A DNA stretch of 64,000 nucleotides from Microbacterium hatanonis (GTDB lineage: Bacteria; Actinomycetota; Actinomycetes; Actinomycetales; Microbacteriaceae): assembly GCF_008017415.1 (NCBI RefSeq), contig NZ_VRSV01000002.1, positions 496,001 to 560,000 of the forward strand, read 5' to 3'. Shown here piece by piece: positions 3,820 to 7,554 of this stretch (position 1 is the first letter of the stretch; each line of letters begins with the position of its first letter). The position numbers and the translations under genes were made by a program. The notes under the pieces were generated by a model. That model saw only the letters and a program-made list of their open reading frames with translations, did no database searches and was not told the DNA's origin.

Positions 3820-6267
3820 GTGGACGGTCCCGCCGATGTCCTGCGCCGACTCACGACCCTGCAGAAGGCGGCGCTGCTCAGCGGCGAGAACGTCTGGCAG
3901 ACCCGCGCGGTCCCCACGGCCGGAGTGCCGGCGATCCGGCTCGCCGACGGTCCTCACGGATTGCGCCGCCAGCTCGGTGCCGCCGATCACCTCGGCCTCG
4001 CCGCGTCGGAGCCCGCGACGTGCTTCCCGACCGCGGCGACGGTGGCCGGGAGCTGGGATCCCGAGCTCGCCGAGCGGATCGGGGCGGCGCTGGGGCGCGA
4101 GGCTGCCGCGCAGGGTGTCGATGTGCTGCTCGGCCCGGGGCTGAACATCACACGGAGCCCGCTGGGCGGTCGCAATTTCGAGTACTTCTCCGAGGATCCC
4201 GAGCTCTCCGGCCTGCTTGCGGCCGCTTACGTGCGGGGTATCCAGTCGGAGGGGGTCGCGGCCACTCCGAAGCACTTCGCGGTGAACAGCCAGGAGCTGC
4301 GCCGGATGGTCAGTGATTCGGTGGTCGACGAGCGGACGCTGCGGGAGATCTATCTGACGGCGTTCGAGATCGTGGTGCGCGAGGCGCGGCCGTGGGCGTT
4401 GATGAGTGCCTACAACCTCGTCAACGGCACGTACGCGCACGAGAACCGGCACCTGCTGACGGAGATCCTCCGCGGGGAATGGGGTTTCGACGGCGCCGTG
4501 ATCTCGGACTGGGGCGGGGGCGACGACCCGGTCGCCGCGGTCGCCGGGGGCGGCACGCTCGAGATGCCGTCGCCGGGGTTCGATTCCGCCCGCGCGATCG
4601 TCGCCGCGGTGGAGCGGGGTGATCTCGACGTCGCCGACCTCGATGCGCGGGTGATCGAGCTGTTGCGGCTCGTCGAGCGGGTGACGGCCCGCGGCGCTCC
4701 GGGCGAGGTGGATGCTGCCGCCCACGACGCGCTCGCCCGGCGCGCGGCGGCGGAGTCGGCCGTGCTGCTGCGCAACAGCGATGCGATCCTTCCTCTCGCG
4801 CCGGGTACCCGGGTGGCACTCATCGGCGACTTCGTCACGGAGCCGCGCTTCCAGGGCGCAGGCTCGTCGCTCGTGAATCCGACCCGCGTCGCCAATCTGC
4901 GCGACGCGATGGCGGCGACGGAGCTCGTGACGACCGCGGTGGCCCAGGGCTTCCGCCGTGACGAGGTGCCCGACGCGGCGTTGGTCGCCGAGGCGGTCGG
5001 TGCGGCACGCGACGCCGATCTCGCGGTGCTCATGCTCGGCCTCCCGGAGATCGCCGATGCGGAGGGGCTCGACCGATCCACACTCGCGATCCCCGCCGAC
5101 CAGATCGCGCTTCTGCGCGCGGTGGCGGCGGCGAATCCGAGAACCGTGGTCGTGCTCAGCGCGGGCGGCGTGATCGAGACGGGTCCGTGGATCGACGACG
5201 CCGCCGCACTGCTGCACGCCTATCTCGGAGGGCAGGCCGGGGCGGATGCGATCGCCGACCTGCTGACGGGCGCGGCGGCGCCCTCGGGGCGACTGGCCGA
5301 GACGTTCCCCCGGGCACTGGCCGACGGAGCGACGGCCAGGACCTTCCCCAGCGCCGCTCGAACGGCGGAGTATCGCGAGGGACTGTACGTCGGCTACCGG
5401 TTCTTCGACTCCGCCGGTGTCGATGTCGCCTTCCCGTTCGGCTTCGGGCTGACGTACACGACCTTCGCGTATGCGAATCTGCGCGCGACGCCCGATGAGG
5501 TGCGGATCGAGGTCACCAACACCGGCTCTCGCGCGGGCGCCGAGGTGGTGCAGGTCTATGTCGGACGGCGGAGTCCGAGCGTCGTCCACCGGCCACGCCG
5601 TGAGCTGAAGGCCTTCGCGAAGGTGCGGCTCGAACCCGGCGAGACCCGCGACGTGGTGCTGACGCTCGGCTCCCGAGGCTTCCGCCACTTCGATGTGTCG
5701 GCGGGTGCGTGGGCGGTCGAGGCGGGGGAGTACGACATCCACGTGGGTCCGAACGTCCGCGACATCGAGCACGTCGCGACCGTCACGGTCGACGGCGGCG
5801 AGACGACAGCATCCGGCGCCGACGAGGTCGCGGCCTACCGCACAGCCGACGTGCGCGACGTCTCCGACGCCGACTTCGCGGCTCTGCTCGGGCGCCCGAT
5901 CCCGTCATCGCACTGGCCGGTCGACCGGCTCGGTGTCAACGATCCGATCGACCGGCTGCACGTGGCGCGCAGCCGCGTGGTGCGCGCGATCTTCCGACTC
6001 GTCGAGCGTCGCCATCAGCGTGCGCTCCGGGCCGGGCGTCCCGACCTCAACGTGGTCTTCGTCTTCAACGCGCCGTTCCGCGCGATCTCGAAGATGAGCG
6101 GCAGCAGAACGACGCACGCCGTCACAGACGCCGTGCTGTTCCTCGTGAACGGCCACACCTTCCGCGGTGCCGCTCGCGTCGTCGCGGCCTACGTCCACGG
6201 GCGCCGTGATGAGAGGGCGACGCGTGAAGAGTTCCGTCGCGGACGCAGGTCGCCCGGCCCTTCGTGA
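3820..6267 (+). CDS. Glycoside hydrolase family 3 beta-glucosidase-like enzyme, with C-terminal extension
   Basis: An 815-aa protein, GTG start. Domain order: GH3 N-terminal TIM barrel (about 10-290) with the nucleophile motif V-I-S-D-W-G-G (Asp230) and the KHFAVN segment; GH3 C-terminal alpha/beta sandwich (about 310-530); fibronectin-III-like domain (about 555-625, ELKAFAKVRLEPGE). An extra region of about 130 residues (about 680-815) follows, rich in Arg and with two hydrophobic helices. No signal peptide is visible, so it probably acts on imported oligosaccharides in the cytoplasm. Family knowledge supports hydrolysis of beta-linked glucosides or related sugars; the exact substrate is not readable. 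A perfect inverted repeat follows the stop. Confidence 0.88.
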   Translation: MDGPADVLRRLTTLQKAALLSGENVWQTRAVPTAGVPAIRLADGPHGLRRQLGAADHLGLAASEPATCFPTAATVAGSWDPELAERIGAALGREAAAQGVDVLLGPGLNITRSPLGGRNFEYFSEDPELSGLLAAAYVRGIQSEGVAATPKHFAVNSQELRRMVSDSVVDERTLREIYLTAFEIVVREARPWALMSAYNLVNGTYAHENRHLLTEILRGEWGFDGAVISDWGGGDDPVAAVAGGGTLEMPSPGFDSARAIVAAVERGDLDVADLDARVIELLRLVERVTARGAPGEVDAAAHDALARRAAAESAVLLRNSDAILPLAPGTRVALIGDFVTEPRFQGAGSSLVNPTRVANLRDAMAATELVTTAVAQGFRRDEVPDAALVAEAVGAARDADLAVLMLGLPEIADAEGLDRSTLAIPADQIALLRAVAAANPRTVVVLSAGGVIETGPWIDDAAALLHAYLGGQAGADAIADLLTGAAAPSGRLAETFPRALADGATARTFPSAARTAEYREGLYVGYRFFDSAGVDVAFPFGFGLTYTTFAYANLRATPDEVRIEVTNTGSRAGAEVVQVYVGRRSPSVVHRPRRELKAFAKVRLEPGETRDVVLTLGSRGFRHFDVSAGAWAVEAGEYDIHVGPNVRDIEHVATVTVDGGETTASGADEVAAYRTADVRDVSDADFAALLGRPIPSSHWPVDRLGVNDPIDRLHVARSRVVRAIFRLVERRHQRALRAGRPDLNVVFVFNAPFRAISKMSGSRTTHAVTDAVLFLVNGHTFRGAARVVAAYVHGRRDERATREEFRRGRRSPGPS

Positions 6268-6273
6268 GCTGAA

Positions 6274-6323
6274 AGTCCAAGACACCCGGAGTCGCGGGCT
6301 CGTGCGCCCGGGTGTCTTGGACT
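6274..6323 (+). terminator. Stem-loop terminator after GH3 gene (16-bp perfect stem)
   Basis: Arms 6274-6289 and 6308-6323 are perfectly complementary over 16 bp (right arm ccgggtgtcttggact) with an 18-nt loop. They lie 7 bases after the GH3 stop. No T-run follows, which is usual for terminator-like hairpins in high-GC actinobacteria. Confidence 0.75.
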
Positions 6324-6424
6324 CTCGAGCAGCCGAAGCCGCGGGTGCATTCCTCTCGACAAAGCATTTCGGGTCGTTCGAAAATGCCGATCGACGACGG
6401 GCACGGCGAATGAGTCGGGTCGAT

Positions 6425-6452
6425 TTGCCTTTTCCGGAAAGCGAGCTACGGT
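6425..6452 (+). promoter_or_regulatory. Candidate SigA-type promoter, leaderless start
   Basis: TTGCCT (6425-6430), 16-nt spacer, TACGGT (6447-6452). The expected transcription start, about 7 nt after the -10, coincides with the ATG at 6459, so a leaderless transcript beginning with a short reading frame is predicted. Confidence 0.45.
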
Positions 6453-6458
6453 GATGGC

Positions 6459-6515
6459 ATGTCCATGATCGTCCGCCCGGGAGACCGCTCCGCGTTCCGC
6501 GCCCCACCGCCCTGA
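6459..6515 (+). CDS. Putative 18-aa leader peptide in an attenuator-like 5' region
   Basis: A short frame encoding MSMIVRPGDRSAFRAPPP, starting at the predicted transcript start. It ends 25 bases before a small stem-loop followed by seven T (6541-6563). The segment ccgctc inside it (6485-6490) is complementary to gagcgg (6549-6554) in the terminator stem, so an alternative antiterminator pairing is possible. This arrangement resembles ribosome-controlled transcription attenuation. The codons show no run of a single amino acid, but the Pro-Pro-Pro stop context could slow ribosomes. The next gene downstream encodes the TraR/DksA zinc-finger protein. The reading is an inference from layout only. 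Confidence 0.35.
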   Translation: MSMIVRPGDRSAFRAPPP

Positions 6516-6540
6516 TCCTCACGATCTCGGTTGTCACGCG

Positions 6541-6563
6541 CGTCGCATGAGCGGCGTTTTTTT
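6541..6563 (+). terminator. Intrinsic terminator/attenuator with T7 tract
   Basis: cgtcgc (6541-6546) pairs with gcggcg (6551-6556) around a 4-nt loop, with one G-T pair, followed by seven T (6557-6563). It lies between the short leader frame and the zinc-finger gene, so it could control read-through. Confidence 0.5.
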
Positions 6564-6610
6564 GTACCCGGCGGCGGTTATTCCCGCGCCCGCATTTCGC
6601 GCTTTGCGCA

Positions 6611-6635
6611 GCGTCGCGGAAAAGCTCCGCGACGC
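6611..6635 (+). other. Perfect 10-bp hairpin in the 5' region of the zinc-finger gene
   Basis: gcgtcgcgga (6611-6620) and tccgcgacgc (6626-6635) are exact complements with a 5-nt loop. It sits between the T-tract attenuator and the start at 6699 and may be a second regulatory or stabilising stem. Confidence 0.5.
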
Positions 6636-6698
6636 CCTGTTCCGTGAAGAGCGTCGCCGACGTCGCTTTCCATCCTCACTTTCTTTCTCAGGATTCCC

Positions 6699-7025
6699 AT
6701 GTCTGCCGATACCTCAACACCGTCCGCCCCGCCGCTGGACGTCATTCGTCTTCGTCGCCTTCTCGAGCACGATCTCGCCCAGCGGCAGGAGATCGTGCGT
6801 CAGGCGGCGCCGAGCGCCGCGCCGAACCTCGACCCCGTGTCGTGGGCCACCAGCACCGCGACACGGCGGGTCGTGGACCAGATCACCGCGGCACTCGCGC
6901 GCCTCGACGACGGAACCTACGGTCGCTGCATCCGCTGCGGCGAGCGGATCGCCGGAGCTCGGCTGGACGTCCTCCCCCATGCCGAGAACTGTCTCGATTG
7001 CCAGCGCCGTGTCGACGGAGCCTGA
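6699..7025 (+). CDS. TraR/DksA-type C4 zinc-finger protein
   Basis: A 108-aa protein. The C-terminal half holds the DksA/TraR zinc-finger pattern C-x2-C-x17-C-x2-C (Cys77, Cys80, Cys98, Cys101), preceded by an amphipathic helical region with the LDDGTYGRC lead-in typical of the family. DksA/TraR proteins bind RNA polymerase through the secondary channel and alter promoter choice, often with ppGpp. The coiled-coil tip residues (DxxDxA) known in E. coli DksA are not evident here, so the regulatory mode is uncertain. The upstream region contains a leaderless-type promoter, a short reading frame and two hairpins, suggesting control by attenuation. Confidence 0.85.
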   Translation: MSADTSTPSAPPLDVIRLRRLLEHDLAQRQEIVRQAAPSAAPNLDPVSWATSTATRRVVDQITAALARLDDGTYGRCIRCGERIAGARLDVLPHAENCLDCQRRVDGA

Positions 7026-7056: not shown

Positions 7057-7554
7057 ATGATCGGAGCTCGGCTGGGGTTCCTGGCGGCGCTGCGCGCGGC
7101 GCCGGAAGTGCAGGAGTTCCCACGTGCCGGTGCGGTGTCGGGGCGTCACCGTGCCGTCGTCATCGGGGTGGACGTCGCCGCGTCGCGCACTCGCCACCAG
7201 CTTCGAGCGGTTCTGCGCGACGTCGAGGTTCAATGCTCGGTGCTCGTGAGCCGGCTGCACCGGCTGGAGCACATCCTCGTCGTCCTGAACGGCTCGATCC
7301 TTCCGGAGCGGATCGTGCTGCGGATCTGCGACGGCGCGGCGGGACGCATCCACGCCTACCTCGAGCAGGCTTGTGCGCGCTCGATCGTGCTCACCGTCCT
7401 CCTCGCCGGCGAGTGCGACGACCACGGGAGTCTCGCCGAGCGTCTCATGGCGCGGGCGCGACAACGCGCGTCCCTCGACGCGCGAATCGCGTTGCGCTGG
7501 CGCGACATCGTGAGCCAGCCGATCGGCGCGGTCGGAGCGAACACCTACGTGTGA
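7057..7554 (+). CDS. Hypothetical protein, 165 aa
   Basis: No family recognised. Codon choice is typical of real genes here, with strongly GC-ending third positions, and the frame is clean from ATG 7057 to TGA. The sequence is mixed alpha/beta, with hydrophobic strands (HRAVVIGVDVAA, IVLTVLLAGECDD) and an Arg/Ala-rich helix near the end. There is no signal peptide or clear membrane segment. It starts 31 bases after the TraR/DksA-type gene, so the two may be co-transcribed, and it converges on the molybdate operon. Upstream alternative starts exist in the same frame. Confidence 0.55.
   Translation: MIGARLGFLAALRAAPEVQEFPRAGAVSGRHRAVVIGVDVAASRTRHQLRAVLRDVEVQCSVLVSRLHRLEHILVVLNGSILPERIVLRICDGAAGRIHAYLEQACARSIVLTVLLAGECDDHGSLAERLMARARQRASLDARIALRWRDIVSQPIGAVGANTYV

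Follow-up and report, generated by a model that had tools for sequence, protein, structure and literature searches.

The uORF attenuator of whiB7/wblC is known from mycobacteria and Streptomyces (Lee, Lee and Roe 2022, summarized in PMC13236596 and PMC11550727). According to these two articles, translation of the uORF favours termination and translation failure favours read-through. Arrest peptides are a second group for comparison. RAPP is the arrest motif of ApdA and ApdP (PMC7897499, PMC10951233), its arrest is not released by EF-P, and the Arg of RAP is irreplaceable, as its substitution abolished arrest in the tested peptides (both PMC12992588). In literature searches that covered few subscription journals, no uORF attenuator was found before a dksA or traR gene, and none was found in Microbacterium.

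Here we describe a leader from a 64,000-nucleotide stretch of Microbacterium hatanonis DNA, the whole of which is called the window. The locus is likely to be a ribosome-controlled transcription attenuator, with read-through when the uORF is untranslated, and its logic is best read, by analogy, as that of the whiB7/wblC type. It consists of the following parts.

6425 to 6452, forward strand: promoter, with -35 TTGCCT at 6425-6430, a 16-nt spacer and -10 TACGGT at 6447-6452 (from the sequence and orthologous leaders)
6459 to 6515, forward strand: leaderless 18-codon uORF, MSMIVRPGDRSAFRAPPP and stop, with a C-terminal RAPP motif (from the frame and sister-species comparison)
6485 to 6502, forward strand: predicted 5' strand of the antiterminator, within uORF codons 9-15 (from the fold of 6459-6563 and a synonymous-shuffle control)
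6538 to 6554, forward strand: predicted 3' strand of the antiterminator, overlapping both terminator arms (from the fold of 6459-6563)
6540 to 6563, forward strand: intrinsic terminator, GCGTCGC-ATGA-GCGGCGT and the rest of T7, which itself occupies 6557-6563 (from a scan and the near-invariant stem in relatives)
6564 to 6698, forward strand: long 5' UTR from terminator to gene, containing a 10-bp hairpin at 6611-6635
6699 to 7025, forward strand: gene for a DksA/TraR-type C4 zinc-finger protein of 108 aa (from PF01258 and a structure model)
7057 to 7554, forward strand: downstream gene for a 165-residue protein with no assigned family (retained behind the dksA-like gene in some of the species)

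At the level of sequence comparison, the promoter, the leaderless start position, the conserved peptide, the terminator and the position of the gene behind it are established. The -10 element ends 6 nt upstream of the ATG at 6459, and thus the predicted transcription start is the ATG itself. A preliminary description of this DNA had proposed such a promoter, with its start on the ATG of an 18-codon frame; both elements are in place, and the same spacing was observed in 46 orthologous leaders. It had also named a T-tract terminator 25 bases after the frame. The seven-pair stem does begin at 6540, 25 nt past the uORF stop, and it is near-invariant in relatives. The T7 tract is unusual in this GC-rich sequence, as had been remarked, being the sole run of at least six T or A in the window (68 % GC; 0.17 expected by chance for T7). 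The perfect 10-bp hairpin at 6611-6635 exists, but its conservation does not extend even to the two sister species, and it was dropped. The original attenuator idea keeps its leaderless uORF, terminator and alternative pairing before the gene and loses this hairpin. Further upstream, just past the stop of a gene ending at 6267, a terminator- or repeat-like inverted repeat of 19 nt (95 % complementary, 18 nt apart) lies at 6271-6326.

The dksA-like subfamily (membership by scores above about 119 bits) was found in about 15 % of 367 Microbacterium genomes. When 56 dksA-like genes were examined, 46 had a promoter of the same spacing directly before a leaderless short frame. The hexamers in these 46 leaders were TTGCCT in 35, TATGGT in 42 and TACGGT in three, and the spacing was constant. 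The full order of TTGCCT-16-TATGGT, leaderless uORF, GCGTCGC-N4-GCGGCGC-T7 and gene was present in 44 of the 56 orthologues of the genus, and 10-12 of the 56 had no canonical uORF or hairpin. The arrangement occurs on 24 named contigs, nearly all of Microbacterium (M. flavescens, M. yannicii, M. trichothecenolyticum, M. gallinarum and M. aurantiacum among others). Searching 198 genomes of the genus for the hairpin and T pattern gave matches in 20, and in 19 of these the pattern adjoins a dksA-like gene; no such gene was found beside it in the remaining genome, and a reversed control pattern had no match in the 198 genomes. The promoter pattern matched only these leaders in 149 genomes, one of them without the gene behind. 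The retention of this arrangement across some 45 species suggests that ribosome activity on the uORF is sensed to decide whether the regulator is produced.

The leaders are not recent copies of one sequence, a view refuted by their well-diverged synonymous sites (pS about 0.45). One match in the leader DNA search was rejected as a chance match within a hemC-type gene. In Rfam, no family was found for the window leader up to an E-value of 1, and six related loci gave nothing except a tRNA at the gathering score. Two genomes retain the whole leader (promoter, uORF and hairpin) with no dksA-like gene found behind it. Two sister-species loci have a second hairpin (GGGCAG...CTGCCC and T5) about 50 nt upstream of the gene, which is absent from the window. 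At five loci a divergent second promoter and leaderless uORF lie upstream of the dksA-like gene; in two of them (L057 and L115) a hairpin and another dksA-like gene lie behind the divergent uORF. Outside the genus, three genomes of another genus in the same family share the promoter and carry a related hairpin immediately upstream of the gene. Their leaderless uORF has 42-43 codons and encodes a different peptide (...GYRRELRL... in two of the three) with no APP ending.

The uORF stop is less than 100 nt from the gene start in 30 of the 46 leaders, and in these close-spaced leaders the ribosome-binding site lies within about 10 bases past the T-run. Therefore, expression of the gene in these leaders would require read-through of the terminator, and most relatives have no space for a downstream promoter. 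This argues against the terminator closing a short independent RNA or small-protein gene, with the dksA-like gene being transcribed from its own promoter downstream of 6563. Such an organization would suit the 183-185 nt that separate uORF and gene in the window and sister species, as well as six other loci with more than 450 nt between leader and gene, where another gene has room. However, the window scan found no promoter-like site in 6564-6698, and 19 of 20 genomes keep leader and gene together, so we consider this explanation unlikely. A transcription start downstream of 6563, raised in the preliminary description, is disfavoured on present evidence by the T-run abutting the ribosome-binding site in the larger family. 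In the window, a weak second promoter may lie in the 135 nt that separate the terminator from the gene.

Most uORFs have a long form of about 54 residues with the consensus M...ERLxDASVVTxxxDIAGARHEVLPPR...RxAPP and stop. When 27 distinct uORFs were compared, dN/dS was 0.05 in the DIAGARHEVLPPR core and 0.41 over the final six codons, and the N-terminal part and the linker had values of about 1. From this pattern, the uORF is very probably translated and selection acts on part of its peptide. Elsewhere in the family, a search with the long peptide returned weak matches only (E-values of 0.0009 or worse), mostly within longer open frames. The short 18-codon form was found in only three related species, including that of the window. 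Their AFRAPPP end before the stop shows synonymous changes only, while the other codons vary; this end and the terminator are therefore conserved in the sister species, where the preliminary description had asked for conservation of peptide and stems. The 18-residue peptide of the window has no localization signal and, by inspection, no hydrophobic segment.

Conservation also bears on a chance assembly, in which a random short frame and a hairpin happened to meet in a GC-rich intergenic stretch. The terminator scan of the window was not significant by itself (one terminator against 1.2 expected from shuffles), the fold of 6459-6563 is no more stable than usual (z -1.0), and the promoter-plus-leaderless-ATG pattern occurs once per strand in the window. 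The first two results would fit chance. However, promoter, peptide and hairpin are conserved in about 45 species, the peptide core is under the constraint given above and the control pattern had no matches, and we find chance hardly credible. It is because of conservation, and not of single-sequence statistics, that the leader stands far above the chance level.

The leader up to the T-run was folded at equilibrium with a ribosome footprint placed on each codon in turn. In the window, a terminator probability of 0.00 was obtained both for the ribosome-free leader and for a P-site on codons 1-5; the probability was 0.40 once the P-site reached codon 6, and 0.56-0.99 at codons 7-18. In the ribosome-free fold, uORF codons 9-15 (6485-6502) pair with 6538-6554 and use up both terminator arms. 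The two sister species fold like the window. The pairing of ccgctc (6485-6490, uORF) with gagcgg (6549-6554, terminator stem), proposed earlier as an alternative fold, belongs to the predicted switch of all three short-form species and is rarely equalled by synonymous shuffles: switch amplitudes were 0.89, 0.98 and 0.66 (about 0.10 in shuffles), and 5.7 %, 0 % and 6.0 % of shuffles reached them, two of these values lying just above 0.05. The switch and its polarity, as supported by these calculations, are narrower than the control by ribosome speed first proposed: termination is predicted when codons 7-18 are occupied, and read-through when the uORF is empty or codons 1-5 are occupied.

Among the long-form leaders (41 sequences), displacement of the terminator by the uORF codons exceeds that seen with synonymous shuffles (mean rank 0.27, with 0.5 expected; the sequences are related). 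Their mean terminator probability is 0.85 without a ribosome versus 0.92 with a ribosome at the stop, a weak equilibrium switch, and kinetic folding and a variable hairpin after the stop may matter in this form. Most long-form leaders have this hairpin immediately past the uORF stop, its stem sequences differing greatly between them (combined z -5.9, the sequences not being independent). It is absent in the window class and so does not belong to the window device. Little signal came from RNAalifold on the whole MAFFT alignment (energy -20.4, covariation -0.5), because the terminator hairpin does not vary and the post-stop hairpin defies alignment by sequence. So invariant a stem leaves almost no covariation of the kind proposed as a check in the preliminary description.

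The ending of the peptide allows another explanation, namely control by a RAPP-type arrest peptide, where, as in ApdA/ApdP, R-A-P sits in the tunnel with P in the A site, and the stall, released by some signal, decides gene expression. This type of arrest is experimentally established elsewhere, EF-P insensitivity included. The FRAPPP end of the window, invariant in the sister species, holds the exact RAPP motif, 14 of the 46 uORFs have exact RAPP at their C terminus, and RRAPP stands at or near the end of each of the five distinct divergent twin uORFs. However, the other 32 uORFs are without exact RAPP, 27 of the 46 end in RAAPP, RVAPP, RAASP or similar, and the second genus has no APP ending. 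Given that the Arg is essential, RAPP arrest cannot be the general basis of the mechanism; it may add to it. Moreover, a peptide of 18 residues, lacking a localization signal, is too short to emerge from the tunnel or come under a pulling force. The window model also predicts termination when the ribosome stands at the RAPP codons, so that a stall alone would keep the gene off. We thus regard arrest-peptide control as a possible but doubtful account.

Translation attenuation was also considered, in which pairing with the uORF would occlude the gene's ribosome-binding site until a stalled ribosome released it. In some long-form loci the uORF sequence GTGCTCC (EVLPP) complements a GGAGCAC ribosome-binding site, and RNAalifold sets a few other pairs with the AGGAG region. 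However, flanks of the ribosome-binding site and uORF codons fail to covary across the alignment, and the candidate pairing was dropped as its partners do not vary together. In the window, the ribosome-binding site is about 180 nt downstream and lacks this sequence, and the conserved T-run would be left unexplained. This makes translation attenuation very improbable, and transcription attenuation is the reading followed below.

The gene behind the terminator had been called TraR/DksA-type, and its product indeed carries the PF01258 zinc finger (40.5 bits; cut-off 24.9), while it scores below every NCBIfam equivalog cut-off. The structure model (pLDDT 86) has two long helices forming a coiled coil (15-36 and 46-71) and a zinc finger, with E. 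coli DksA giving the best PDB matches. In the DksA/TraR family the coiled coil has an acidic tip and enters the secondary channel of RNA polymerase. Here, Asp45-Pro46 at the coiled-coil tip is near-invariant, and the second acidic position, D74 in E. coli DksA, is Ser in the window. No phage or viral-contig copies of the protein were found, and plasmids gave distant relatives only. The protein encoded at 7057-7554 has a VIGVD motif and no Pfam or NCBIfam family above cut-off. Its orthologues follow the dksA-like gene at four further loci, and a related family occurs near the divergent dksA-like gene at L057 and L163-type loci. The 7057-7554 gene is probably co-transcribed with the dksA-like gene.

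In the proposed mechanism, transcription would begin on the ATG of the leaderless uORF, and translating ribosomes would mask the uORF codons able to pair with the terminator hairpin. With these codons masked, the hairpin and T-run would form and transcription would usually end before the dksA-like gene. If the uORF is untranslated, or if a ribosome is kept within the opening codons, the 3' half of this frame would pair with the terminator arms; RNA polymerase would then read through, and the small DksA/TraR-type protein would be made and, we infer, act on RNA polymerase. The conserved slow peptides (PPR and RxAPP-stop in the long form, FRAPPP-stop in the window) probably set the dwell time of the ribosome on the uORF. 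On the very short frame, the slow PP/RAPPP end codons would hold the ribosome until the polymerase passes the terminator, making 'off' the default. The signal would presumably be translation trouble (antibiotic, starvation or low ribosome activity), with antibiotic or stress plausible.

A more specific and tentative proposal, for which we see some chance, is that genus-wide leaderless arrest peptides (DIAGARHEVLPPR...RxAPP-stop, with FRAPPP-stop as the minimal version) act as a timer until the polymerase meets the terminator, the dksA-like protein being made only upon translation failure. If so, ribosome failure would be coupled directly to a regulator docking in RNA polymerase, and the 18-codon form of the window would be a stripped-down version of the device. 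If the attenuator itself is real, it represents a class not found in our literature searches, with peptide and RNA conserved in about 45 Microbacterium species plus a second genus, and it would allow a GC-rich actinobacterium to make an RNA-polymerase-binding regulator according to ribosome state, with no transcription factor involved. Together, the 54-codon and 18-codon forms, the divergent RRAPP twins and the second-genus leaders, with another peptide in the same anatomy, form a natural series for comparing which parts a uORF attenuator needs, and the leader suggests a searchable signature for unannotated leaderless uORFs.

When compared with known systems, the protein resembles the DksA/TraR family (E. 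coli DksA, P. aeruginosa DksA2 and TraR) in its C4 zinc finger, two-helix coiled coil and near-invariant tip Asp-Pro, but its coiled coil is shorter and the second acidic tip position is Ser. The C-terminal RAPP of the window form and the divergent twins is shared with the RAPP/RGPP arrest peptides (ApdA, ApdP, the RQH family and CruR; PMC7897499, PMC10951233, PMC10987492, PMC12992588). Unlike these, the peptides here have no localization signal and no sec/yidC or metal-transport gene downstream, most members have RAAPP or RVAPP, and a conserved terminator stands behind the uORF. Attenuators of the ilvB/trp type (e.g. ilvB1 of M. tuberculosis, PMC13236596) likewise have a uORF and a mutually exclusive antiterminator (predicted here) and terminator; however, the present uORF lacks a stretch of regulatory codons for a single amino acid, and the gene behind it is not a biosynthetic one. 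With whiB7/wblC, compared by description, the locus shares an actinobacterial leader, a uORF (here very probably translated), an intrinsic terminator and a transcription-regulator gene behind them. Here too, uORF translation is predicted to favour the terminator and its disturbance an antiterminator, clearly in the window and two sister species and weakly in the long-form leaders. The locus differs in that the gene is of the DksA/TraR type (PF01258) with no WhiB factor downstream, and in that the uORF is leaderless with a promoter signature of its own.
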